A stretch of 38,802 nt of DNA from Bacteroidota bacterium. GTDB taxonomy: Bacteria; Bacteroidota; Bacteroidia; Chitinophagales; UBA10324. Made by a program: the position numbers and the translations under genes. The stretch's first letter is position 1; each line of letters opens with the position of its first letter. This document shows, piece after piece, positions 15,421 through 33,072 of the stretch. The stretch is taken from positions 1 through 38,802 of the forward strand of contig BJGQ01000029.1 of the NCBI GenBank assembly GCA_014190575.1. Reading direction: 5' to 3'. The notes beneath the pieces are model-generated. The model was not told the origin of the DNA. It did not search any database and was given only the letters and a program-made list of their open reading frames with translations.

Positions 15421-16569
15421 TTAATAATTTCCAAACACATCAAAATTTCCTTCGGCTGAATCCAATTTTATTTTCAGAAAAGTTGAATCAGAAAATTGAT
15501 TGAGGTAAGTGTCTTTTCTTAATAATTGTAAATATAGTTTAAGGCTTGATTTTTCACTTGCATGAAATGCATCAATCATTTCTTTATCGTTACTCCCGTA
15601 GTTTTCAGGATTAGTGAAATCATAAATCCGAAAACCATTTTCACGAAAAACACGGTTCATAAGTTCATTCAGTTTAAAGAAATAGGGAAAATGTTCGGGG
15701 TATAATTTCATTTCGCTCATCACCATGCTGTTTGCAGGTGGAAGAAAACCTGTAACATTAATTTTATGTTTTTTACAAAACCGCAAAAACAACCTCAGTT
15801 CATTCACCGCACACTTATCAATTGAATTTGTCCATTGTAATTTCCCTTCATCAGTGTTTACATTCTCAATGGCGTTATATATCAGGCATTTTAAAGAATT
15901 AGAATCAGCCAACAATTTTCCATAGTAGCAACTTCCATCTCTCCGAAATCCATGACCGGTATTTCTGGCGCTTATACCAAACCATTCAACCTCAGAATTT
16001 TTTTCCGTCCAAATCTTTTCCCAACTGATTTTTCCATACCACCAATCGTAATAAAAATTTTGCCATGCACTCATTCCACTCCAGTTATTGAACCACGAAT
16101 ACCGATTGTAAACCAAATCGTTCTTTGTTTTTACTGATGAATCGTATCGGGAATTAAACCACCACTGATCCAGACCGAGAATAATTGTTTGCGGTAAATT
16201 TTCTTCGGGTAGCGATTCTAAAAACGCGCGCAATTGTTCCATCCTGTTAAAAACTCCGCCGGTATTATAAAACGGAATGGAGTCTTTAAAAAATGCTGAA
16301 CGGAATTGCAATACTCGTGATGAACCAAGTGCAAGAATCTTCGGCGAACTGTTTTCAACGGCCGCTAACTTGAAATAGTGAGGCAGGTTTGAATAAGCCG
16401 CACCATAAATAAAATTTCGGCGGTCGTTAATTTGCGCTTGTAAAGTTTTATTCAACCAGAAAATTTCTCCGCTTTTATAAAACACCGCAACTGTAAAAAT
16501 TGTAATAGCAGCATACGGAAAAACAAACCGTATAAACCTTGGAATAAACTTTTGGACTTCTCTGTTCAT
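15421..16569 (-). CDS. SGNH-like (DltD/AlgJ-type) partner of MBOAT
   Basis: A 382-residue membrane-anchored protein. One membrane helix spans about residues 13-31. The strand-turn motif LALGSSRVLQF (GSSR at 82-85) resembles block I of SGNH hydrolases with the catalytic Ser, and DAFH at 333-336 resembles the terminal Asp-x-x-His block. This is the layout of DltD, AlgJ/AlgX and similar periplasmic acyl-transfer partners of MBOAT proteins. Its start codon overlaps the MBOAT stop by one base (TGATG), so the two are translationally coupled. It is last in the nine-gene glycan run. Inference: it passes acyl groups onto a surface glycan after MBOAT brings them across the membrane. Confidence 0.75.
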   Translation of the reverse strand: MNREVQKFIPRFIRFVFPYAAITIFTVAVFYKSGEIFWLNKTLQAQINDRRNFIYGAAYSNLPHYFKLAAVENSSPKILALGSSRVLQFRSAFFKDSIPFYNTGGVFNRMEQLRAFLESLPEENLPQTIILGLDQWWFNSRYDSSVKTKNDLVYNRYSWFNNWSGMSAWQNFYYDWWYGKISWEKIWTEKNSEVEWFGISARNTGHGFRRDGSCYYGKLLADSNSLKCLIYNAIENVNTDEGKLQWTNSIDKCAVNELRLFLRFCKKHKINVTGFLPPANSMVMSEMKLYPEHFPYFFKLNELMNRVFRENGFRIYDFTNPENYGSNDKEMIDAFHASEKSSLKLYLQLLRKDTYLNQFSDSTFLKIKLDSAEGNFDVFGNY

Positions 16570-18026
16570 CAGAATTGGAAGTAGATGAATTGTGAGTTAT
16601 TAAAAACGCCAAATGCAAGAATGCTGATGATTAATAAATGATAAGCAGTTAACCGAACCCAACGCGGTTGGTTAATCATTAAATTAAAAAATTCATTTCC
16701 CATCATCAGTCGCTGAACAATTTCTAGAATAATTATTCCGGCAACAGAAAAATATATTATGTCAATTGAAATAATATTAATTCCAAGACCTGAAAAATTC
16801 AGGTGCCATGCTGATGTTATTATTGTGAAAGCATCGGTAACAGAATCAGCACGAAAAAATATCCAAGCGAAGCATACCAGAAAAAAAGTCAGCCATTGTT
16901 TCGTAAGTTTTTTAATAAATGATTTCGCTTTGGATAATTTAATAGATGGTGTTTTCGCTAACAACTTTTCTTCATCAGCATTACCAATTCCAAAATATTT
17001 TTCAACCATAACATAAATTCCATGCAGTGCTCCCCAAACAATAAATGTCCAATTGGCGCCATGCCACAATCCGCTCACTAAAAAAACAATGGCGAGGTTG
17101 ATGTAAATTTTTTTTAAAGAAACCCGACTTCCACCAAGCGGAATAAATAAATAATCACGAAACCACGACGAGAGAGAAATATGCCATCGCCTCCAGAATT
17201 CAGAAACAGAAGCGGACGAATAAGGATTGTCGAAATTTTTCATCAAACGAAACCCCATTACACGCGCAGCACCAATTGCAATGTCACTGTACCCACTGAA
17301 GTCGCAATAAATCTGGTAAGCAAAAAAAATCGTTGCAAGAATAACAGGTAGCCCCTCATATTTTCCGGGATGATTGTAAACTTCATTTATATAAATAGCT
17401 AACCGATCCGCAATCACTAATTTTTTAAAAAACCCCCACGCCATTTGTTTCAAGCCATCAGTTACATTTTGATATTTGAAATCATGCGATTCATAAAACT
17501 GATGAATTAAATTTTGAGGCCGCTCAATTGGCCCGGCAACCAATTGCGGAAAGAACATTACATACAAAGAATAGATACCGAAATTTTTTTCTGCCTTCTG
17601 ATTGCCTCTGTAAACTTCAATTACATAAGCCATGCTTTGAAAAGTGTGAAACGAAAGACCGATGGGAAGAAGAATAGAATAAATATGTGATGGAACAGAG
17701 CAATTAAACAAGTGTGCAACTGAAGAAAAAGTATCAGTAAAAAAGTTGAAATATTTAAAAACAAAAAGTATGAACGCCGTAGAAATTAAACTGGTGATGA
17801 GTAATAGTTTTCGTTTAAAACCTTTTTGTCGCTCCATTAAAATTGCAGCGCTGTAATCAACAGAAATTGTAATGGCGAGAATAAAAATGTATGCCGGAAT
17901 AAATGCCATGTAAAAAAAACAACTTGCACTCAATAACCACAACCACCGAAACCGATGAGGCAACAGAAAATAACCAACGGTTACAATTGGAAAAAAAGGT
18001 AAAAAGGAAAAGGAATTAAATAGCAT
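16569..18026 (-). CDS. MBOAT-family membrane O-acyltransferase
   Basis: A 485-residue polytopic membrane protein of the MBOAT family, closest in style to AlgI/DltB/PatA, which move acyl groups through the inner membrane for polysaccharide O-acylation. Conserved blocks are FFPQLVAGPIERP (158-170), SEFWRRWHISLSSWFRDYLF (275-294, with His282) and SGLWHGANWTFIVWG (318-332, with the invariant His322); a further HGI lies at 335-337. About eleven membrane helices are visible. Length is normal. It lies 61 bases after the methyltransferase gene and overlaps the SGNH-like gene by one base. The pairing argues for O-acylation of the glycan made by this cluster. Confidence 0.92.
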   Translation of the reverse strand: MLFNSFSFLPFFPIVTVGYFLLPHRFRWLWLLSASCFFYMAFIPAYIFILAITISVDYSAAILMERQKGFKRKLLLITSLISTAFILFVFKYFNFFTDTFSSVAHLFNCSVPSHIYSILLPIGLSFHTFQSMAYVIEVYRGNQKAEKNFGIYSLYVMFFPQLVAGPIERPQNLIHQFYESHDFKYQNVTDGLKQMAWGFFKKLVIADRLAIYINEVYNHPGKYEGLPVILATIFFAYQIYCDFSGYSDIAIGAARVMGFRLMKNFDNPYSSASVSEFWRRWHISLSSWFRDYLFIPLGGSRVSLKKIYINLAIVFLVSGLWHGANWTFIVWGALHGIYVMVEKYFGIGNADEEKLLAKTPSIKLSKAKSFIKKLTKQWLTFFLVCFAWIFFRADSVTDAFTIITSAWHLNFSGLGINIISIDIIYFSVAGIIILEIVQRLMMGNEFFNLMINQPRWVRLTAYHLLIISILAFGVFNNSQFIYFQF

Positions 18027-18087: not shown

Positions 18088-18825
18088 TTATTTGCTCAAT
18101 ACAAAACAATAAGTAAAATAATCAGCAAGCGCTGGTTTTCGATTGATCGTTATTGTATCAATAAAAGATAGCATAGGTAATAAAATTTTTATTGAGGGTA
18201 ATTTATTCCATACTGACATACCTCGTGCCGGCACACGCATCACCGGAAAGAATGCAGTCAATTTCAATTCCGATTTTTCAATTAAGTTTTTATAGTGCGC
18301 AAGTGAGCGGAATAAATGTTTATCGGATTCTTTCGTTTCGTTTTTTACTTGTTCGAACATCAAAATTTTTCCGGTTGGTTTTAATATGCGCTTCAGTTCA
18401 TTTAGCCACATCACCGATTCTTCATCATTGATATGCTGAAACACCCAATGCGAAAATGCAGCATCAAATTGATTGTTTCCTTCTGGAATTTTAAAATCAT
18501 TTAGCAGGAAGTACTCAATATTATTTGCTGCGAATTTTTGTTTCGCAGTTTCAATCATTGCAGCATTTGAATCAACGCCGACAACTTTTTTTGAAAGACC
18601 AGAAAGTTTTTTTGAAATGCGCCCTACCCCACAACCAAAATCAAGAATTATATTATCCGAAGTCGGGTGAAGGTTTTTTATGATGTATTTAGTCGTAAAA
18701 TAATTCCGATAAATATTTGAATGCTGCTGCCCGTTTGCAACATCGAGCACCGCATTTTCATTCTGATGTGTAACAGCCGCCTTGTTGAAAAAATCTTCAA
18801 CTTGTTTTTTATCTATTCCGCTCAT
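18088..18825 (-). CDS. class I SAM-dependent methyltransferase
   Basis: A 245-residue methyltransferase with the SAM-binding motif I IILDFGCGVGR (59-69), acidic end of strand 2 in VVGVD (81-85), and a motif II/post-II region FDAAFSHWVFQHI (about 119-131). The C-terminal 60 residues carry the usual substrate-side strands. It could be UbiE/SmtA-like by fold; the substrate is unknown, and in this setting a sugar hydroxyl or carboxyl is the natural guess. Its ATG overlaps the stop of the FemAB-like gene by four bases (ATGA), giving tight coupling. It lies between the acyltransferase and MBOAT genes of the glycan run. Confidence 0.85.
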   Translation of the reverse strand: MSGIDKKQVEDFFNKAAVTHQNENAVLDVANGQQHSNIYRNYFTTKYIIKNLHPTSDNIILDFGCGVGRISKKLSGLSKKVVGVDSNAAMIETAKQKFAANNIEYFLLNDFKIPEGNNQFDAAFSHWVFQHINDEESVMWLNELKRILKPTGKILMFEQVKNETKESDKHLFRSLAHYKNLIEKSELKLTAFFPVMRVPARGMSVWNKLPSIKILLPMLSFIDTITINRKPALADYFTYCFVLSK

Positions 18826-19859
18826 TGCCCGATAAATAATCTTTTTAAAAGATTCCAGAATTTTAATTGTACGGGTTTCAATGCATATCCTGTGTGTTGA
18901 GTTGGAAGTTGTTGCGCACCAAACCGCAATTTGAATTTTGAAATGCCCTTACTGAATTTCAAATTTGACTCTGAAAGTTCAAGAGAAGTTTCACCTAAAA
19001 AATAATTTTGAAATCCATTTACTTTTAAATACTTCATAATTTCCCAATGTAAAAACTGACCGGCACCAATACTGTTTTTAATGGTGCCACCGAAATTATA
19101 AAGCGATGATTTTCCATAATTGTATAGCAAGGCGCCACATAAATAGTTTCCATTTTGTTTTGCAAAAACAAGTTGTGCTGAATGGTTTGACTTAAAAATT
19201 TCATATTCATTTCGGATAAAATTTTTATTCGGGGGGTGAGCATTTTGATTTTTATAGGTTTCATCCAACAATAAAAAAAATAAATCAATATCATTGACAA
19301 ACTCAATGGTTACATTGTTCCTTACAGCTTTAAATATTTCACTCCTATGCTTGGGATTAATTGCTTTCCGTAGTTCATCAATACTTTTTGTTAAATCAAT
19401 CTTGGCAATTCCGATTCTGCTCTCCCAAATTTTTTTATATTCGATTAACGAAATTAGTTTTTCTGTTTCGCCAAAAAAGCTATAAGAATAAAAAGAGGTA
19501 ATTTGTTTTTTCTTTAACCACTTTTTTATTGCAGCTGTTAATTCAAAATATAATTTGCTGAATTCAATATTTTTTGAATCATCAACTAAAATTTCACTTC
19601 CCTGTGTTGCCCTTGTACTTATGGTTCTAATAAAAGCAGGTAATTTTTTTGATTCGTAGAAATAAATTTTAACACCACCAATTAATTTTTCCTGGTGATA
19701 ACATTGAAAATACCACGGCCAATTGTTAAAGTATAATTGTATCTCATCATTAAAAGTGCTTTGCCATATATTGTTACAGCGAAAAGAAAGGAGGTTCCAT
19801 TCGTCGATATTGACGGGTGCTTTGTCAGTTACTACAATATTAAAGTCAGCGACGGGCAT
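18822..19859 (-). CDS. FemAB/BioF2-like acyl- or aminoacyltransferase
   Basis: A 345-residue protein with the double-GNAT look of the BioF2-like (Acetyltransf_6)/FemAB group. Visible features are KIDLTKSIDELRKAINPKHR (about 152-171), the segment before the second domain that is usual in this group, and the C-terminal strand-helix unit ending in SKFKLRFGAQ. Such proteins in polysaccharide clusters transfer acyl or aminoacyl groups to sugar amines. Its frame overlaps the end of the fusion gene by 14 bases and the methyltransferase start by four. No signal peptide. A free amine made by the PIG-L deacetylase could be its acceptor; that link is inference. Confidence 0.7.
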   Translation of the reverse strand: MPVADFNIVVTDKAPVNIDEWNLLSFRCNNIWQSTFNDEIQLYFNNWPWYFQCYHQEKLIGGVKIYFYESKKLPAFIRTISTRATQGSEILVDDSKNIEFSKLYFELTAAIKKWLKKKQITSFYSYSFFGETEKLISLIEYKKIWESRIGIAKIDLTKSIDELRKAINPKHRSEIFKAVRNNVTIEFVNDIDLFFLLLDETYKNQNAHPPNKNFIRNEYEIFKSNHSAQLVFAKQNGNYLCGALLYNYGKSSLYNFGGTIKNSIGAGQFLHWEIMKYLKVNGFQNYFLGETSLELSESNLKFSKGISKFKLRFGAQQLPTQHTGYALKPVQLKFWNLLKRLFIGQ

Positions 19860-22800
19860 GAATAAAAAACTCCTCTTTTAGTTCTTTATATAAATCGAGC
19901 AACTTGTTTTGTTCGTGTTCCCAGTTCAGAATTTTTTTAGTCTGTCGCACATTGTTTTTAAATTCCGTATTCCGCTTTTCCAACTCTAAAAAACCATTAT
20001 AATATGCATTGGGTTCATCGGCGTTTACACACACACCAATTTTATGTTGTTCAATAATTTCCATGTGTTCAGGCTGTGCTGATGCGAGAATCGGAAGTTC
20101 GGCCATCACATAGTGAAACAATTTGTTTTCCAAACCCAACCAGTAACTCATGTATTTTTTATTCCAGGTGCTCAACAATCCATAATCAGCAGCTTGAATG
20201 GTTTTAACAATTTCACCCGGTTGAATGGCGGAATGAAAATAAATATTTTTGAATCCTGACTCGCTCACCCACTTCATAATTTCTTTTTTGTTTCCACCTT
20301 CACCACAAATAAATATAAGCGCAACCCCAGGCTTATTGGCAAATTGTTCAATTGCCACTTCAATGTTTCTTGATTTCCAATAAATAAAAAGCGAAAAGTT
20401 TAAGACGATTTTTGTTTCAGCAGAAATTCCAAGTTCTTGGCGAATGCTTTTTTCAGGAAGTACAATTTCTTCATACTCTGCAAGATTTCGAATAATGACC
20501 ACCTTGTTTTTCAATTCAAAATATTTTTCTAAATCATTGCCAATCGACTTAGAAACTGTGATAACACGATCAATTAATTTACCGGCTTTTTTTTCCCGAT
20601 TTACCTCAAGCTTTCGAACCACATCGGTTTTTATGCGAACCCAAGGAGATGAATGGCTTGAATAATTTATTGGCCATGAATGAAACAGTTCATGAGAATC
20701 ATAAACAAGCAGCGTTTCCGGTCGTTGTTTTTTTATCAATGTGCCAATATAAAGCATTAATTGATCGTGACAATGAAGAATATCAAATGGTTCACGGGCA
20801 ATTTGTTGCGCCATGGCTGATCGGGCAATTGCGTTCTTTAAGTCAAATATTTCTGTACTGAAAATTCTCCTGATTAAAATTCCATCTTTTATTTCTTCAG
20901 CCGGCAGGTCATTCCGCTGAACAGCATAAAGTGTTAATTGATATCCATTGTTCACTAATGTTTTTGCTTCGCGATAAACGCGGCTATCCATTGTGAAAGA
21001 ATTATCGAGCAACATTGCTATTCGTGGTAATTCATTAATAACTACTTCATCATTATTTTTTCTTTCAAGCAACTGGTCATAAAAATTAATCAGCAATTTA
21101 CTTTCGTTTGTCCAGTTAAGTACTTGTTTTGCTTTGACAAGATTTGTGGTATATAATTCTTTGTTCTTAATAATTTCTTTCCAACCGTTGTAATATGCAC
21201 CCGGCTCATCAGGATTTACACATACACCGATATTGTATTTTTCAACTATTGCTTTGTATTCAGGCTGCGCAGTTGAGAGCATTGGAATTTCAGCCATCAG
21301 GTAATTAAAAAGCTTATTGTCCAATGCGTACCAGTAACTCAAATCTTTTTTATTCCATGTTGGAACAATACCCGCATCGCAACCCGACAGATAAGTTGTT
21401 ATTTGATGATGTGGAACTACATCATGAAAAAGAACATTGGTAAAATTTTTCTTCTTTGCATAATCTTCAACTTGCTTTCTGTGTTCATCATCTGAACTGA
21501 TAATGATAAATATAAGGTCATCTTTATTTCCAATCTCATTTAGTACCTGAACCATATTTAAACTCTCGAGATATATATGCGCACCAATAAAGGCTAATAT
21601 TTTTTTATTGTCAGGTATATCGAATTTATTTCGTAAGATATAATTGCGTTCCGGAATTAATTCGTTCACAGGAACATTTCTGATTACAGTCGGCTTTGTT
21701 TTTAGCCTAAAATAATTTTGAAGGTTATCTGCCAAGGATTGATTTACAGTAACCAGATAATCTATTTCACGACCGAATTTTTTCTCGTTCCTGATTTGTA
21801 TTTTACGAACAAACAAAGATTTAAAAATGATGTATGGATTTTTTGTTGTGAAGTTGAGTGGCCATGAATGAAAGAGTTCATGCGAATCATAAATCAAAAC
21901 AGTCTTTGGATTTAACTTTTTAATCATTGCTCCGATATTCAGCATTAAATGGTCATGGCAATGAATGACATCAAAATTATATGAGGCTATTCTTCGTGCC
22001 ACCATTTTTAAATCGCCATAAGATTGAAAACGAAAAATATCTCTGGGAATTATCCGCTCAATTTTAACTTCATTTTTCACCTCTCTGAATGGAAGATCAG
22101 GTGAATACATGCAGAACATGGTCAGGTCAAAATATTTTCCAACCGTAGTTGCTTCTTGTATTACACGATTGTCATTTAAGTAAGAATTATCAAGCAGCAT
22201 TGCCACTTTTTTCCCTTTGACTTTCGACAAGTAAACTTTTGAGCCGCCCCATAAGTTTATTCGCTTTAAAAAACGAGTGATGAATCGTACACGATTAAAA
22301 AAATTAATAATAGAAGGATATGCAGTATGCGGAATTTCAGGCGCTGAAATAATTCTTTCAAACTCGGAAGTGCTGAGCCCGAATTTTTTGAGCACATATT
22401 CTTTATCAGAAGCAGCAAGTTCTGCAGATATTAGAGGTTTGGCCGATTCAATAAGCGCTTCTTCGCGAGTGATTTGTCCTGAACAAATCATTGTGCTCAA
22501 ATGCGACCGACGCTTATCTACATGAAATTTTACAGGCAGTATGTATGATTGATAAAATCGGGTTATAATTGATTCATAATGTTTTCCTCCATAGTCGCGC
22601 CAGTTTAATTCAGAAGTCAGAATTTCCTTTGCATCCTTTCTGTTGTAATAAAAAAGATCCAGAATTTTCACATACTTTATTCCTTTTATCTTTTCATAAA
22701 AATATTTTCGAAACAATCCAAGCTTCGGAAATGTTTTTAGCCGACTAACGCCAAACCGCTTATTAATGGCCTTTATATTTATTAAATCATTTTTGTTATG

Positions 22801-23376
22801 AATCCACCGTTCAGGTAAAATTCCTTCGGTTCGAAAATTTTCACCACTTAAAATATACTTGATTCCATACTTGTTGGCTGTATGATATAAGGTTGCAAAA
22901 ATGGCATGGTCCGAAGTTGCTTCAATATCAATTACAGATGCTTTTAAATAGGCTAACTGCAAATTTTTGAATTCTTCCCAATTAATAACTTTGGTATATA
23001 AATCAATGTTTAATTTTTTAAGGATGTTTGAAATATTGCTTACCGCCAATTCAGAATTCCAGCCATTATCACAATGAACAGCCAATGGACGCAATCCGTA
23101 TTGCTTAACTAAATAGGCCACATAAGTTGAATCTACTCCTCCGCTAACTCCAACTATACAATCATACGCCTTGTTTTTACCGGCGAGTTTTATCTCTTCT
23201 ATTAGTTTTTCTAAATACTTTTCGCGCTCAGGTAATGGAAGCAATCTTTCTGCAGCCTCTTTATCATATAAATGACAATGGTTGCAAACTCCGTTATTAT
23301 CAAAATATATTAGAGGGTCATCAGCAGTGGAAAGTATGCATCGGGTGCAAATCTGGTAGGTGCGGGTTGATTGCAT
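19846..23376 (-). CDS. fusion: N-acetyl-sugar amidotransferase + two glycosyltransferases
   Basis: A 1176-residue triple fusion. Residues 1-385 are a complete WbuX/WbpG/PseA-type N-acetyl-sugar amidotransferase: a zinc ribbon made of CTRC and CNHC in the first 40 residues, then the PP-loop SGGVDSTYV near 80 that binds ATP. This enzyme turns an acetamido group into acetamidino using ammonia from HisH/HisF. Residues about 387-782 and 783-1176 are two full-length GT4-like glycosyltransferases, each with AMLLDNS, HCHD, YDSHELFHSWP, a C-terminal donor-site block around NKLFxYxMAE and a final NW...(N/K)LL...Y motif. Both are related to the separate gene at 24773-25930. No stop or frameshift interrupts it. 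The ATG at 23376 is preferred over the TTG at 23388. It lies 18 bases after the HisF-like gene and overlaps the next gene by 14. I know of no described case of this fusion. Confidence 0.92.
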   Translation of the reverse strand: MQSTRTYQICTRCILSTADDPLIYFDNNGVCNHCHLYDKEAAERLLPLPEREKYLEKLIEEIKLAGKNKAYDCIVGVSGGVDSTYVAYLVKQYGLRPLAVHCDNGWNSELAVSNISNILKKLNIDLYTKVINWEEFKNLQLAYLKASVIDIEATSDHAIFATLYHTANKYGIKYILSGENFRTEGILPERWIHNKNDLINIKAINKRFGVSRLKTFPKLGLFRKYFYEKIKGIKYVKILDLFYYNRKDAKEILTSELNWRDYGGKHYESIITRFYQSYILPVKFHVDKRRSHLSTMICSGQITREEALIESAKPLISAELAASDKEYVLKKFGLSTSEFERIISAPEIPHTAYPSIINFFNRVRFITRFLKRINLWGGSKVYLSKVKGKKVAMLLDNSYLNDNRVIQEATTVGKYFDLTMFCMYSPDLPFREVKNEVKIERIIPRDIFRFQSYGDLKMVARRIASYNFDVIHCHDHLMLNIGAMIKKLNPKTVLIYDSHELFHSWPLNFTTKNPYIIFKSLFVRKIQIRNEKKFGREIDYLVTVNQSLADNLQNYFRLKTKPTVIRNVPVNELIPERNYILRNKFDIPDNKKILAFIGAHIYLESLNMVQVLNEIGNKDDLIFIIISSDDEHRKQVEDYAKKKNFTNVLFHDVVPHHQITTYLSGCDAGIVPTWNKKDLSYWYALDNKLFNYLMAEIPMLSTAQPEYKAIVEKYNIGVCVNPDEPGAYYNGWKEIIKNKELYTTNLVKAKQVLNWTNESKLLINFYDQLLERKNNDEVVINELPRIAMLLDNSFTMDSRVYREAKTLVNNGYQLTLYAVQRNDLPAEEIKDGILIRRIFSTEIFDLKNAIARSAMAQQIAREPFDILHCHDQLMLYIGTLIKKQRPETLLVYDSHELFHSWPINYSSHSSPWVRIKTDVVRKLEVNREKKAGKLIDRVITVSKSIGNDLEKYFELKNKVVIIRNLAEYEEIVLPEKSIRQELGISAETKIVLNFSLFIYWKSRNIEVAIEQFANKPGVALIFICGEGGNKKEIMKWVSESGFKNIYFHSAIQPGEIVKTIQAADYGLLSTWNKKYMSYWLGLENKLFHYVMAELPILASAQPEHMEIIEQHKIGVCVNADEPNAYYNGFLELEKRNTEFKNNVRQTKKILNWEHEQNKLLDLYKELKEEFFIHARR

Positions 23377-23394
23377 GGAATGCCGCAAACTTAA

Positions 23395-24144
23395 CTACCA
23401 ATTCATATCCGAAGAAGAAGGATATGAAATCATTACAGCTTTATGTACGCCCGTATAAACAAACATGCTTCCGGCAGCAGCAGCTGAAGCTCCTGATGAA
23501 ATAACACTTCTTAAATCAGAAAATGAGCCAGCCCCGCCACAACCAATAACCGGTATTGAAACGGCTCTTGAAATTTCTCCGATAAGTTTTAAATCGTATC
23601 CTTTCATTATCCCATCTTGTTGAACAGTTTGAATTAAGATTTCTCCCGCTCCAGCATCTTCCATTTGCATAAGGTGATACTTCCAAGAAGAAATAATCAT
23701 TTTACCTGCAGCAGAATATAAAATGTAATTTCCAAAAAAACTTTTCGTTATATCAATTGAAACAACAATTGTTGAACTTCCAAAGTTTTTTGTGGCCTCC
23801 TTTATTAACGCAGGATTTTCCAATGCGGAAGAATTTAACATCACTTTTTCAACGCCTATTTTTATTAATTTCTCAATGTCTTTTAGCGTTTTAATTCCCC
23901 CGCCATATGAGAGTGGCATAAAACATTCACTTGCCAAATCTTTTATTAAATCGAAATTGATTGTTTGATTTTTTTTAGATGCATCAATGTCGAGTACAAC
24001 AATTTCATCAACTTCCTTTTCATTAAAAATTTTTATGGCATTAATCGGATCGCCGACATACCTGGGTGAAATAAACTTAGTGGTTTTAACGAGTTCGCCT
24101 TGCTGAATTAATAAAACCGGAATAATGCGTGGGCGATGGCTCAT
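23395..24144 (-). CDS. wbuZ: HisF-like acetamidino modification protein (WbuZ/HisF2)
   Basis: A 249-residue TIM-barrel protein of the HisF family, but of the WbuZ/HisF2 branch that serves sugar amidination, not histidine synthesis. The first catalytic Asp of true HisF (in IPCLDV) is replaced: here the strand reads IPVLLI, with Leu12 in its place. The second Asp is kept (Asp131 in SIDIT). Phosphate-binding loops (GGGIK at 81-85 and GGAGS) remain. Its role is to receive ammonia from HisH and guide it through the barrel to the amidotransferase domain. The start overlaps the HisH stop by four bases (ATGA), matching the subunit pairing. The fusion gene follows after 18 bases. Confidence 0.9.
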   Translation of the reverse strand: MSHRPRIIPVLLIQQGELVKTTKFISPRYVGDPINAIKIFNEKEVDEIVVLDIDASKKNQTINFDLIKDLASECFMPLSYGGGIKTLKDIEKLIKIGVEKVMLNSSALENPALIKEATKNFGSSTIVVSIDITKSFFGNYILYSAAGKMIISSWKYHLMQMEDAGAGEILIQTVQQDGIMKGYDLKLIGEISRAVSIPVIGCGGAGSFSDLRSVISSGASAAAAGSMFVYTGVHKAVMISYPSSSDMNW

Positions 24145-24755
24145 TTCAGTTCAGAAAAATTTTTATACAATTCCATTCCGTAACGATGACTTTTTTCGGG
24201 GTGAAACTGAACGCCGTAAATATTTTCTTTTTGAACACCTGAAATGAAATCATATCCATAATGTGTTTGCAGCCACTTGTTTTCTTCATGCACATTTGCA
24301 AGATGAAAGGCATGCACAAAATAAAATCGTTGCTCTTCATTCATTTTTAAAAGTGTAACATCGTTCAGTTGCTCCACCGAATTCCATCCCATGTGCGGAA
24401 CACGAATTTGCTCTGTAGCTTTTTCATTATTGAATCGAACAACATCTGCATCAATCCATCCAAGTCCCAGTTCTTTTCCTTCTTCGCTTTGGTTACACAT
24501 TAATTGCACTCCCAAACAAACTCCAAGAACAACTGTTTTATCGATCAATACTTTTTTGTTCAATATTTCAATCCACCCTTGGTCTTTCAGCAATTTCATT
24601 GCGGTGTCGAATGAACCGACGCCGGGTAGGATAATTTTTTTTGCATCAGCAATTTCAGATGGAATGGAAGTAATAACAGAATCGGCCCCGATTTTTTTCA
24701 GCATGTTTTGTATGCTTGAAATATTTCCGGTGCCGTAATCAATTATGTGAATCAT
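24141..24755 (-). CDS. hisH: HisH-like glutaminase of sugar amidination (WbuY)
   Basis: A 204-residue class I glutamine amidotransferase of the HisH type. The catalytic triad is complete: Cys80 in GVCLGVQ, His185 and Glu187 in FHPEKS. The oxyanion-side PGVGSFD (44-50) is normal. It hydrolyses glutamine to ammonia and hands it to the HisF-like barrel. No hisA, hisB or other histidine gene lies nearby, while an N-acetyl-sugar amidotransferase follows two genes on, so sugar amidination (WbuY role, as HisH2 in Pseudomonas O-antigen loci) is the better reading. Gap to the glycosyltransferase gene before it is 17 bases. Confidence 0.9.
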   Translation of the reverse strand: MIHIIDYGTGNISSIQNMLKKIGADSVITSIPSEIADAKKIILPGVGSFDTAMKLLKDQGWIEILNKKVLIDKTVVLGVCLGVQLMCNQSEEGKELGLGWIDADVVRFNNEKATEQIRVPHMGWNSVEQLNDVTLLKMNEEQRFYFVHAFHLANVHEENKWLQTHYGYDFISGVQKENIYGVQFHPEKSHRYGMELYKNFSELK

Positions 24756-24772
24756 ATATCTGCAAATATGGA

Positions 24773-25930
24773 TTAGCTAATGATTTGTTTATAGAGTTCC
24801 AATAATTTTTTTTGTTCTTGCTCCCAATTTAATTTTTGTTTGGCGTTCACCAATTCAGGATGAAAATTATCCGGTTGCAATAAAATCTGTTTCAATCCTT
24901 TTGTAAATGCTCCCGGAATGTCGGGATCAACACACATTCCTACCTTATTTTCTTCTACAATTTTTTTATATTCAGGTTGAGCGCTCGCCAGAATCGGAAT
25001 TTCAGCCATGATGTAACTGAATAATTTATTGTCGAGTGCGAGCCAGTAACTTAAATCGTTTTTATTCCATGCCGAAACAATTCCTACATCGCAGCCACTC
25101 AGCACACTTGTAATTTGGTTGATTGGAATGAGCGGATGAAAAAACACATTGCTCCAGTTGTTTTCTTCCACCCATTGTTTAAACCAATGAGAATGCGAAT
25201 CATCGCCGGTAATTATCACGAAAGAAATATTCGTGACAGTTACAATTTCTTCAATTGCTTGTTCCATACGCAGCGAGTTTCGATACAAGTGCCCACCGAT
25301 ATAAACCACAATTTTATTTACTGCATCAATTGAAAATTTATTGCGCAGGTAATCACTTCTTTTTAACACAGCTTCGTATCGCGGAATATTTCGAGTGACA
25401 ACTGCTTCTGTTTTCAGGTGAAAATATTTTGTAAGAATATCAGCAATGGATTGATTGACCGTAATGAGGAAATCTGCTTTTCGTCCGTCTGCTTTTTCTT
25501 TTCGTACTTCTAATTTCCGAACAATCCACGATTTCAACCACAATACAAATCCGGGAGATGATACATGCAGCGGCCATTGATGAAATAGCTCGCGCGATTC
25601 GTAAATCAATATTGCATGTGGTTGTTTCTTTTTAATGATTGTTCCGAGGTTTAACATTACCCGGTCGTGACAATGCAGAATGGCAAAATCTGTTTTGGAA
25701 ATAGTTGCAGCAAGCGAGTGTAACAGTCGCTCATTCTTGAACTGATAAATTTCAGGAGTAAAAATTCGATGGATGAAAAGATTGTTTCGTGTTTCTATTT
25801 CCGGAAAATCTTTTTCCTTCATGCAGAATAAATGCAACTCAATATCAAGCGAACACAAACTTTCAACTTCGAGCAATGCCCGACGATCAATGTTTAAAGT
25901 ATTGTCGAGCAAGAGAGCGACTCTCTTCAT
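24773..25930 (-). CDS. GT4-like glycosyltransferase
   Basis: A 385-residue glycosyltransferase of GT-B fold, most like GT4. Motifs seen are LLDNTLNIDRRALLEVESL (about 7-25), HCHDRVMLNLG (86-96), IYESRELFHQWPLH, the WNKNDLSYWLALDNKLF block (about 285-301) and AEIPILASAQPEYKKIVEE. The full length and all these blocks recur twice in the fusion protein at 19846-23376, so the three modules are paralogues. Acceptor and donor sugars are unknown. It starts 6 bases after the PIG-L stop. No membrane helix is present, so it probably acts at the cytoplasmic face. Confidence 0.88.
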   Translation of the reverse strand: MKRVALLLDNTLNIDRRALLEVESLCSLDIELHLFCMKEKDFPEIETRNNLFIHRIFTPEIYQFKNERLLHSLAATISKTDFAILHCHDRVMLNLGTIIKKKQPHAILIYESRELFHQWPLHVSSPGFVLWLKSWIVRKLEVRKEKADGRKADFLITVNQSIADILTKYFHLKTEAVVTRNIPRYEAVLKRSDYLRNKFSIDAVNKIVVYIGGHLYRNSLRMEQAIEEIVTVTNISFVIITGDDSHSHWFKQWVEENNWSNVFFHPLIPINQITSVLSGCDVGIVSAWNKNDLSYWLALDNKLFSYIMAEIPILASAQPEYKKIVEENKVGMCVDPDIPGAFTKGLKQILLQPDNFHPELVNAKQKLNWEQEQKKLLELYKQIIS

Positions 25931-25936
25931 CTTTCG

Positions 25937-26569
25937 TTAGTATATAACTTTCATTACTTCAAATGCCTCGGCAAATTCGCTACCTATTTGCACACCACGA
26001 GCAGTTGCGAGTCCGCGAATGAACCCTTCGTTCAGATAAGCACGGTGCGACTGCGATTTATATGCCTGCAATGCTTCTAATTTTTTCATCACAAATTTTT
26101 CCTGCAACTTGATAAAACAACTGGTTTGAAAATTCAGATTGTTCCAGGGCAATTCGTAACCTAGAATGGAAGCATCTTTAAATGCACGCAGTCCCTCGTT
26201 ATGAATAACCTGATGATCCTGGTGTAAATCGCTGGAGCATGGAAGAAAAACCAATTCGGGTTTCAATTCTTTTTTCAACACCACCATGTCTTCTAAAATA
26301 TTCTGACGAAAAGTGCTGAAATGACGAACATCGTAATCAAATAACCGAAGATTCTCTGAGGGGATACCTAAAATTTTTGTTGCTGCCTTTACTTCAATTT
26401 CTAAAGTATCGGGTGCAAGCCCGGGTTCAAGCGAACGGCGACAGAGCGAAAATGCTGCATAATAAATTTCTTTTCCTTCATCCACAAAGCGAGCAATACT
26501 TCCTCCTAATCCTAATTCACCATCGTCGGTATGTGGAGCCAAAACGAGAATTCTTTTTTTACTGATCAT
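25937..26569 (-). CDS. PIG-L family deacetylase
   Basis: A 210-residue LmbE/PIG-L family zinc deacetylase, which removes N-acetyl groups from amino sugars. The metal motif is APHTDDGELG (11-20) with His13 and Asp16; the usual PHPDD has Thr in place of Pro, a known variant in sugar-modifying members. The second metal/catalytic block is SDLHQDH (113-119). Length is normal. It is the first gene of the nine-gene glycan run, under a promoter-like pair at 26588-26622. Context suggests it exposes a free amine on the sugar, later acylated or amidinated; the order of steps is inference. Confidence 0.9.
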   Translation of the reverse strand: MISKKRILVLAPHTDDGELGLGGSIARFVDEGKEIYYAAFSLCRRSLEPGLAPDTLEIEVKAATKILGIPSENLRLFDYDVRHFSTFRQNILEDMVVLKKELKPELVFLPCSSDLHQDHQVIHNEGLRAFKDASILGYELPWNNLNFQTSCFIKLQEKFVMKKLEALQAYKSQSHRAYLNEGFIRGLATARGVQIGSEFAEAFEVMKVIY

Positions 26570-30105: not shown

Positions 30106-33072
30106 TTATTTATTCAGCGATAAATCATTTGAATTTAAAATGGCTTTATAAATCGCCTCTTGAATATTCTTGCGCACATTGAGTGAATTTATTTTACTGT
30201 TTTCGTCATCGGGAAAAGTGCGGTTCGAGAGGAAAACAAATGTTAACTGGTATTGCGGGTCGGTCCACACACAAGTACCCGTGAATCCCTGATGACCATA
30301 AGTGTTACACGATGCTTCACTGCAACACGGACTTGCTCTGTCGGGATCAGGTTCCGGTTTATCGAAACCCAAACCACGGCGACAAATTTTTCCGGCTTGT
30401 GTGGTAAACTTCTGAACGGTTTCGGGTGAGAAATATTTTTCGCCCCCGTACTCACCTTTGTTCAAGAGCATTTGCATTTCAATGGCTAAATCATTTGCAG
30501 AAGAAAAAACTCCTGCGTGTCCACCAACACCACCCAGCATCGCCGCGCCCTGGTCATGCACAAATCCTCGAATCAATTCGTGCCGATAAAAGTTATCGTA
30601 GTTCGATGGAACAATTCTGTCCAACGAAAATTTATCAGTTGGATTGTAGGTCATGGTTGGCATTCCAAGCGGCGAATAAAAATTTTTGTCAACTAACTCG
30701 TCAATCGGTTTGCCTCTGATTTTTTCAGCAACTGCTTTCAGAAAATAAAAATCAAGGTCACTGTATACATAAGTTCCGCGTGTGTTTATGGGAGACGAAA
30801 GAATTTCCTGCCACATGGTATCAATATACGCAGGGCAGATGTAAATATCTTTTGTCACGCGCACACATTTTTCTTTTGTTGAAATGCTGCTGTAAAGATT
30901 TGCATCCAAACCACCACGCGCATCAAGCGTCCGTTTGTAAAACGGAATGAATGGTTTCAATCCTGCGGTGTGCGTTAGCAATTCTTTAATCACAATAGAT
31001 GATTTGTTTGTGCCTCTTGTTTCGGGCAAGTAATCACCAACAGTTTTATTCAAATCAATTTTTCCTTCGTCATACAGCTTCATGATTTCCATATTGGTGG
31101 CGGCAATTTTTGTAATGGAAGCGAGGTCGTACAAATCATCGTTGCGCACCGAATCAATTTTATCGTAAGTCAGGTAGCCGAAAGATTTCTGGTAAATAAC
31201 TATTCCATCCTTCGCCACTAAAACCTGGCAACCAGGAAATGCTCTGTCCAACAACGCATCATCAACAATCGAATCAATTTTCTTCAGCAAATCTTCGCGC
31301 ACACCAACTTCTTCGGATTGCGAGTATTTTAATCTGATTGTTGCGGTAGTCAGCAATCCAGTTCCCGACGGAATTGTTTTCGAAGCGCTCACCGATAATT
31401 TTCCTTTCGCTTTTATACCACCGAATAAAAGTTGCGCCGCCATTTTTTGCGTGATGGCTTCATCGTTGTAACACTCCAACAGCCAGTTCTTGTCTTCAAA
31501 AAATTTCAGCGCATACGGACTACCGAAAACTGTTACAATGGTTTTTTTCTGCTGACTGATTGCATCAATAAAAGTTTCAGCACTCTGTGTGATTCCGTAA
31601 AAGTCGCTCGACTTTTTATTCATGTTGTGAATGCTAATGATAACGAGATTGTAATCTTTCAGCTTCGTTGCAAGCGCTGCATAATCTTCCTTGCTTGATT
31701 GCTTATCCATCTGAAAACTTTTCACCGGTGCATATTGCTCCAGCATTTCCTGAAACTGATTTCTGCTGAAAGCACCAATGGCAACTGAAGCAATTCGCAG
31801 CGTATCAAGTTTTTTTAATGGAATGAAATTTCCTTTGTTGCGAACGAGAGTCAATGCATTTTCAACTAATTGTTGTTTCAATAATTTTGCTTCGTTGGTA
31901 TTCAAATCTTCATTCAGATTTTTCAACGAGATACTTTGCCGCTTGTTTAATCCGCTCCAGTATTTCGCACGAAGAATTTTTTTCACGCGCTCATCCACTT
32001 CTGCTCTCGTAATAAATCCGCTGTCAATTGCTGCCTTAATTTGTTTGATTGCTTCACCCACATTTCCTGAAAACAGCAACACATCATTACCCGCCAGTAA
32101 TGCCATTGCATCTACTTTTCCGGGGGCAGAATAATTACTCACTCCTTTCATATTCATCGCGTCGGTAAAAATCAATCCCTGAAAACCGAGTTGCTGTTTT
32201 AAAATTCCGGTGACAATTTTTGGTGAAAGTGTTGATGCTCGATTACTGGTCATATCTAATGCAGGAATAAAAAGATGCGCAACCATCATGCTTCCCACTC
32301 CCGCATTAATCATTTCTTTGAAGGGAAATAATTCCAGAGTATCGAGTCTTTGCTTTGAAGCATTGATTACTGGAAGCGCGAGATGCGAATCAGTATCAGT
32401 ATCCCCGTGACCGGGAAAGTGTTTTGCGCAGGCAATCACACCGCCATCTTGCAAACCTTTCATGTAGGCGATTCCTTTTCCTGCAACATTGTATTTGTTG
32501 TCGCCGAAACTTCTGTCGCCGATAACAGGATTGAGCGCGTTGTTATTGATATCTACATCTGGCGCAAAATTTATATTCACTCCGATGCGTTTGCACTGTC
32601 GCGCAATTTCTTTTCCCATTAAATAAATGAGCGAATCATTTTGAATGGCGCCGAGCATTTGTTGTCGCGGAAAATTCATAGTACTATCGAGGCGCATGCT
32701 TAATCCCCATTCGCCATCAATGGCAATCAGCAACGGAACCTTGCTGACATTCTGATAAAAATTTGTGAGCGATGCTTGTCGCCCGGGTCCGCCCTGCATA
32801 AAAATCAGTCCGCCGATTTTGTATTTAGAAATCATGGCGGCGATATTTAATTTTTCTTCCGAACCTTTATTGCTGTATGCAGCCATCATAAACAACTGAC
32901 CCAATCTTTCATCGGGAGTCAAGATATTGAAAATGGAATCAGCCCATGCAGAACTCTCCACTAAAAACGGAGGCACATCGCCGTCAAATAATTTTATATC
33001 CCTTGGTCCGGGCGAAGCCAAAGGCAGAAAAAAAATTACGGCGAGCACAATAAAAACGAACAATTTTTTCAT
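30106..33072 (-). CDS. GH3 beta-N-acetylhexosaminidase fused to serine hydrolase
   Basis: A 988-residue two-enzyme protein with an N-terminal signal anchor. Residues about 45-380 are a NagZ-like GH3 domain: KHFPGHGDT at 217-225, the DSH loop (228-230) and the nucleophile Asp304 in FTDAMNM. Residues about 400-560 form a GH3 C-terminal-type domain. Residues about 595-985 are a class C beta-lactamase-fold serine hydrolase: SITK at 652-655 holds the Ser and Lys, and YSD (770-772) is the second element. HTAGL near 701 is usual for the family. This fusion is known in Bacteroidota and fits periplasmic cell-wall recycling. All key residues are present. It is separate from the genes on either side. 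Confidence 0.92.
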   Translation of the reverse strand: MKKLFVFIVLAVIFFLPLASPGPRDIKLFDGDVPPFLVESSAWADSIFNILTPDERLGQLFMMAAYSNKGSEEKLNIAAMISKYKIGGLIFMQGGPGRQASLTNFYQNVSKVPLLIAIDGEWGLSMRLDSTMNFPRQQMLGAIQNDSLIYLMGKEIARQCKRIGVNINFAPDVDINNNALNPVIGDRSFGDNKYNVAGKGIAYMKGLQDGGVIACAKHFPGHGDTDTDSHLALPVINASKQRLDTLELFPFKEMINAGVGSMMVAHLFIPALDMTSNRASTLSPKIVTGILKQQLGFQGLIFTDAMNMKGVSNYSAPGKVDAMALLAGNDVLLFSGNVGEAIKQIKAAIDSGFITRAEVDERVKKILRAKYWSGLNKRQSISLKNLNEDLNTNEAKLLKQQLVENALTLVRNKGNFIPLKKLDTLRIASVAIGAFSRNQFQEMLEQYAPVKSFQMDKQSSKEDYAALATKLKDYNLVIISIHNMNKKSSDFYGITQSAETFIDAISQQKKTIVTVFGSPYALKFFEDKNWLLECYNDEAITQKMAAQLLFGGIKAKGKLSVSASKTIPSGTGLLTTATIRLKYSQSEEVGVREDLLKKIDSIVDDALLDRAFPGCQVLVAKDGIVIYQKSFGYLTYDKIDSVRNDDLYDLASITKIAATNMEIMKLYDEGKIDLNKTVGDYLPETRGTNKSSIVIKELLTHTAGLKPFIPFYKRTLDARGGLDANLYSSISTKEKCVRVTKDIYICPAYIDTMWQEILSSPINTRGTYVYSDLDFYFLKAVAEKIRGKPIDELVDKNFYSPLGMPTMTYNPTDKFSLDRIVPSNYDNFYRHELIRGFVHDQGAAMLGGVGGHAGVFSSANDLAIEMQMLLNKGEYGGEKYFSPETVQKFTTQAGKICRRGLGFDKPEPDPDRASPCCSEASCNTYGHQGFTGTCVWTDPQYQLTFVFLSNRTFPDDENSKINSLNVRKNIQEAIYKAILNSNDLSLNK

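Follow-up and report, generated by a model that had tools for sequence, protein, structure and literature searches.

To our knowledge, there is no settled answer as to whether WbpG-type amidotransferases act on the acetamido group of the nucleotide sugar, of the lipid-linked glycan or at a later stage. Here we report that the window, which is the whole 38,802-nucleotide stretch of DNA analysed, encodes such an enzyme on one polypeptide with two glycosyltransferases (GTs). It is contig 29 of the metagenome-assembled genome (MAG) G000, from an uncultured member of the Bacteroidota; this MAG is 3.19 Mb long and 98% complete. Little is known about the structure and function of the amidotransferase family (PMC10607449), and a single chain with an amidotransferase and two transferases, together with HisH and HisF2, makes the timing of amidination directly testable. 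Moreover, the fusion indicates which glycosyltransferases go with the amidinated sugar, something that cannot be read from clusters of separate genes, and it unites chemical steps that are carried out by separate proteins in other bacteria.

The fusion gene (19846..23376, minus strand) consists of a single open frame, 1176 aa long when read from the ATG at 23376 and 1180 aa long when read from a possible alternative TTG at 23388; the plus-strand reading of 19846-23376 is full of stops. The initial annotation had described a single frame carrying an amidotransferase (AMT) and two GT modules, and this architecture, AMT-GT1-GT2, was confirmed on the minus strand with module borders that the annotation had placed correctly to within a few residues (385/387/783). 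Module 1 (residues 1-345; 22342..23376, minus strand) is an N-acetyl sugar amidotransferase of the WbuX/WbpG/NASAT type. It matches TIGR03573 over residues 8-343 and model positions 2-343 of 344, with 287.4 bits against a cut-off of 203.2. The NASAT family is defined by a tetracysteine, CxxC..[GN]xCxxC, and a PP-loop, SGGxDS (PMC10607449), and in module 1 the tetracysteine C10-C13-C31-C34 is intact and the PP-loop reads SGGVDS at residues 78-83. In the full-length model, the fold matches that of the solved NASAT (PDB 8wex). The full-model score above the cut-off, both motifs and the HisH and HisF2 partners thus place the module within TIGR03573/NASAT. It is followed by linker 1 (residues 346-390; 22207..22341, minus strand), which is fast-evolving and of low pLDDT.

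The other 790 residues of the protein contain two complete GT4-like GT-B modules, GT1 (module 2; residues 391-770; 21067..22206, minus strand; assigned by Pfam and tree) and GT2 (module 3; residues 786-1170; 19867..21021, minus strand; assigned by Pfam and structure model), separated by the fast-evolving linker 2 (residues 771-785; 21022..21066, minus strand). The profile search that had been proposed for these regions returned both Glyco_transf_4 and Glycos_transf_1 twice (PF13439, 96.2 bits, and PF00534, 54.8 bits; best pieces at residues 799-964 and 582-742), above the Pfam cut-offs for GT domains, which gives each module an N-terminal and a C-terminal Pfam domain. In the model of GT2 (pLDDT 82) the GT-B fold is complete, and VIA-align gives Z scores of about 30 to MshA (29.7) and about 29 to PimB' and BshA; the full-length AlphaFold model has a pTM of 0.37, and its domain contacts are unreliable. 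Both GT1 and GT2 retain the family motifs HCHD, YDSHE(L/M)F and (D/E)NK(L/M)F. The canonical GT4 EX7E motif is missing from GT1, from GT2 and from GT3, an unfused paralogue encoded upstream; in its place stands (D/E)NK(L/M)FxYxMAE, in which the second Glu is replaced by N, S or A in GT1, by H in GT2 and by S or T in GT3, and unfused relatives keep E at this position in most cases and have D in two. We therefore call the modules GT4-like rather than canonical GT4, and catalysis by both of them is not certain. GT1, GT2 and GT3 are three old paralogues, about 40-45% identical within a genome (GT1-GT2 about 43%), and each forms a supported clade in the GT tree.

Since the window is a MAG contig, we considered whether an assembly or frame artefact had fused neighbouring genes. 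However, the full frame recurs uninterrupted in seven MAG assemblies, which leaves this explanation with practically no probability, and its presence in six MAGs beyond our own rules out both mis-assembly and a chance product. The survey for the same domain order that the initial annotation had suggested found the fusion end to end in six further MAGs from the family of the window genome, as an architecture of 1180 aa without stops and with 66-78% identity to the window protein, so that, with the window genome counted, the full stop-free frame is present in 7 of the 16 family genomes searched; three of the six are public Bacteroidota MAG records. Selection has kept the modules and let the linkers drift. 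For each module dN is far below dS in the closest pairs, mean orthologue identity is 70% for AMT, 68% for GT1 and 71% for GT2, and pN/pS is 0.24, 0.26 and 0.26, respectively, versus 0.56 and 0.63 for the two linkers. Constrained modules joined by drifting linkers are the pattern expected of a true multi-domain protein. The fusion is a genuine, conserved and new domain architecture in a known enzyme family, and no new kind of system.

The surrounding genes include a predicted source of ammonia for the amidotransferase. Upstream of the fusion and on the same minus strand lie, in this order, a PIG-L family deacetylase (25937..26569; PF02585; its position beside GT3 is conserved), GT3 (24773..25930; 46% identity to the GT1 module, and placed by the tree), a HisH glutaminase (24141..24755; TIGR01855, 221.8 bits) and an AglZ/HisF2 family protein, the ammonia conduit (23395..24144). 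The latter passes NF038364, a curated model for acetamidino-modification proteins (344.5 bits, cut-off 310), and fails the canonical hisF model TIGR00735 (185.5 versus 294.55 bits). Profile searches found neither another HisH above the cut-off nor a canonical HisF in this 98%-complete genome, and the HisH/HisF2 pair thus looks dedicated to amidination. Ordinary histidine synthesis was ruled out as the role of the pair, HisF2 being of the AglZ type and the canonical pair being absent. Histidine synthesis appears to be missing from the window genome.

Downstream of the fusion, also on the minus strand, are a FemAB/GNAT-like transferase (18822..19859; weak matches, below the cut-offs) whose start overlaps the fusion stop by 14 bases, a SAM methyltransferase (18088..18825; Pfam), an MBOAT O-acyltransferase (16569..18026; PF03062, 101.6 bits) and a DltD-like protein, the candidate MBOAT partner by weak matches and conserved position (15421..16569); several of the gene ends overlap. 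This operon order is maintained in four other MAGs (L040, L041, L042 and L044) as far as the contigs extend. In G062 the operon lies on two contigs (L043 and L117), with the PIG-L-GT3-HisH-HisF2 block intact on one and AMT-GT1-GT2-FemAB-MBOAT-DltD kept together on the other. In G121, HisH and HisF2 precede the fusion, and PIG-L and GT3 are on a separate contig. G121 (L045) is assigned to another genus, yet in both the AMT and the GT1 trees its fusion nests within the genus of the window, beside those of G000 and G103, which suggests transfer of the locus or a genus-boundary problem. Elsewhere in the window (30106-33072, minus strand), a 988-aa frame appears on inspection by eye to encode a glycoside hydrolase family 3 domain with a beta-lactamase-like serine hydrolase C-terminal to it.

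The initial annotation held that the known enzymes stand alone, and our survey bears this out: among 395 genomes of the phylum, TIGR03573 has 70 matches above its cut-off, 69 of them in frames of 342-475 aa, and the single remaining one is the fusion in the window itself. Across 398 genomes of the order, a GT and an amidotransferase are joined only in the seven triple fusions, in G091 and in G025 and G038, and we found no description of an amidotransferase-GT fusion in the literature available as open-licence full texts. The sister-genus genome G091 encodes a permuted protein of 1008 aa that runs from GT to amidotransferase to a decayed GT remnant. Its N-terminal GT groups with GT2 (support 100/100), and the remnant aligns to the GT modules with a best score of 134 against a shuffled maximum of 58. 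This score alone fits any of the paralogues; the position of the remnant after the amidotransferase suggests that it derives from GT1, and the junction there resembles the AMT-GT1 junction of the window. In the tree, the fused amidotransferases fall into a single clade (SH-aLRT 95), and the G091 protein is adjacent to it (81). The simplest history would be either an ancestral AMT-GT1 fusion that gained GT2 at one end in one lineage and at the other end in the other, or a single fusion whose modules were permuted later.

G025 and G038, which belong to a different family of the order, encode frames of about 800 aa in which the amidotransferase follows a GT-like protein of another type; the GT assignment here rests on weak matches, and relatives of the N-terminal part are 436-438-aa proteins whose genes lie downstream of a stand-alone AMT in two further genera of the window family. 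Stand-alone amidotransferases often adjoin GT or GT-like genes, as in the unfused order HisH-HisF2-AMT-(GT-like)-MBOAT of G059 and in GT-HisH-HisF2-AMT on a Massilia plasmid. Two other kinds of WbuX-related protein were seen. In G588, an NRPS-like protein (L105:2022-6041) with condensation-type and adenylation regions, recognized by eye, contains a WbuX-related zinc-ribbon/PP-loop stretch that scores under the TIGR03573 cut-off. In G514, a 678-aa protein (L104:612-2648) has a GATase_6/7 glutamine amidotransferase domain fused to a WbuX-like PP-loop domain and may thus make its own ammonia; frames of similar length are present in G754, G521 and G444.

With regard to the substrate, a NeuB-family synthase (PF03102) has no match in the 98%-complete MAG, which speaks against pseudaminic or legionaminic acid, and amidination of a nonulosonate of the PseA type was rejected on the absence of this supply from the genome. 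Two WecB-type epimerases are encoded elsewhere in the window genome, beside WcaI-like GTs and with no tie to the fusion operon, and WbpB- and WbpE-like relatives of the Massilia cluster were found as matches of 31-40% only.

The function assigned to the modules by family is well supported, and a mechanism that couples them is plausible. In our best explanation, to which we give about an even chance, the fusion is a cytoplasmic enzyme with three modules that assembles a glycan in the manner of WsaE, amidinating an N-acetyl sugar on the growing chain, with GTs adding sugars before and after this step. From the chemistry of the families, HisH would release ammonia from glutamine and HisF2 would pass it to the amidotransferase module, which would activate the acetamido carbonyl with ATP and swap its oxygen to yield an acetamidino group. 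One GT4-like module would attach the N-acetyl sugar to the glycan under construction, which is probably lipid-linked; the amidotransferase would modify this sugar in place, and the other GT module would extend the glycan only once the amidine is present. GT3 and the PIG-L deacetylase may build the preceding part of the glycan, and the FemAB-like, methyl- and MBOAT/DltD-type acyl transferases may decorate the product, which is presumably destined for the cell surface. We infer the order of action, the modification in place, the substrate and the product from this gene content and from precedent. When MMP1081 of Methanococcus maripaludis, the nearest genetic precedent, is lost, sugar 3 lacks its acetamidino group and sugar 4 is absent (PMC2952790). 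Amidination there falls after one transfer and before the next, an order that suits an enzyme with one GT per transfer; the result is archaeal and was reported as unpublished in that review (PMC2952790). It is possible, if on balance improbable, that amidination amounts to a checkpoint within one enzyme, such that the attached GT extends the glycan only after the glycan-borne sugar has been amidinated. If so, the sister-genus protein, with its permuted order GT2-amidotransferase-GT1, would be a rearranged version of this same machine.

The initial annotation had proposed that joining amidination to two transfers points either to direct use of the amidinated sugar or to sequential action of the two GTs on it. 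The coupling of the two activities gains support from the three different GT/amidotransferase fusions, and the permuted protein of G091 and the different-type fusion of G025 and G038 indicate that it has been selected repeatedly or retained through rearrangement. Between the two readings, the MMP1081 precedent favours sequential action of the GTs and disfavours direct use, if by this use as a donor is meant. In such donor-level coupling, a nucleotide-activated N-acetyl sugar would be amidinated and handed directly to one or both GT modules, and the fusion and its recurrence fit such channelling equally well. However, deletion of MMP1081 does not stop transfer of the sugar, which then lacks its amidine (PMC2952790), two GT modules sharing one rare donor would be less expected, and profile searches found no pathway for such a donor in the operon; we consider coupling at the donor level rather unlikely.

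Either form of coupling is compatible with only one GT module, probably GT2, being catalytic and the other serving for binding or as a scaffold. This is suggested by the three paralogues, none of which keeps the second EX7E Glu, and by G091, in which GT1 is a relic and GT2 is intact, so that two active GT modules per chain are not always needed. Nevertheless, GT1 and GT2 are under equal constraint in the main clade and both keep the three family motifs named above, and we regard a single catalytic GT as doubtful. It is in our judgement quite unlikely that the fusion merely sets the stoichiometry or co-expression of independent enzymes without channelling or ordering; fast-evolving linkers and the frequent adjacency of unfused GT or GT-like and amidotransferase genes agree with this, but three different fusions linking the same two activities do not.

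The fusion can be set beside several known systems. With GT4 enzymes of the WcaI/BshA/MshA type, the window protein shares the GT-B fold over a full module, as the Z scores of the GT2 model to MshA and BshA (29-30) indicate; a WcaI-family profile is its best GT profile, and a PIG-L deacetylase gene is close by, as in thiol pathways. It differs in the absence of EX7E from its GT modules, and it falls far under the BshA cut-off (41.9 versus 273.7) and the WcaI-subfamily cut-off (93.9 for the whole protein versus 276). A BshA/BshB bacillithiol pathway was rejected on the BshA score and on that of BshB1 (63.7 versus 182.5 bits). With the WbuX/WbpG NASATs (TIGR03573; 8wex) it has in common the complete domain, the zinc tetracysteine, the PP-loop and the HisH/HisF2 neighbours, and it is distinguished from the other members surveyed, which stand alone, by its two additional GT modules. 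Tandem GT modules are also found in WbdA of E. coli O8/O9a, a multidomain mannosyltransferase without a modifying domain. The closest architectural precedent is WsaE of Geobacillus stearothermophilus, in which a methyltransferase and two rhamnosyltransferase domains are carried on one chain (PMC2943079); both are soluble proteins that combine a sugar-modifying domain with two GT domains, and the likeness is one of architecture only, the modifying domain being an amidotransferase in the window protein and a methyltransferase in WsaE.
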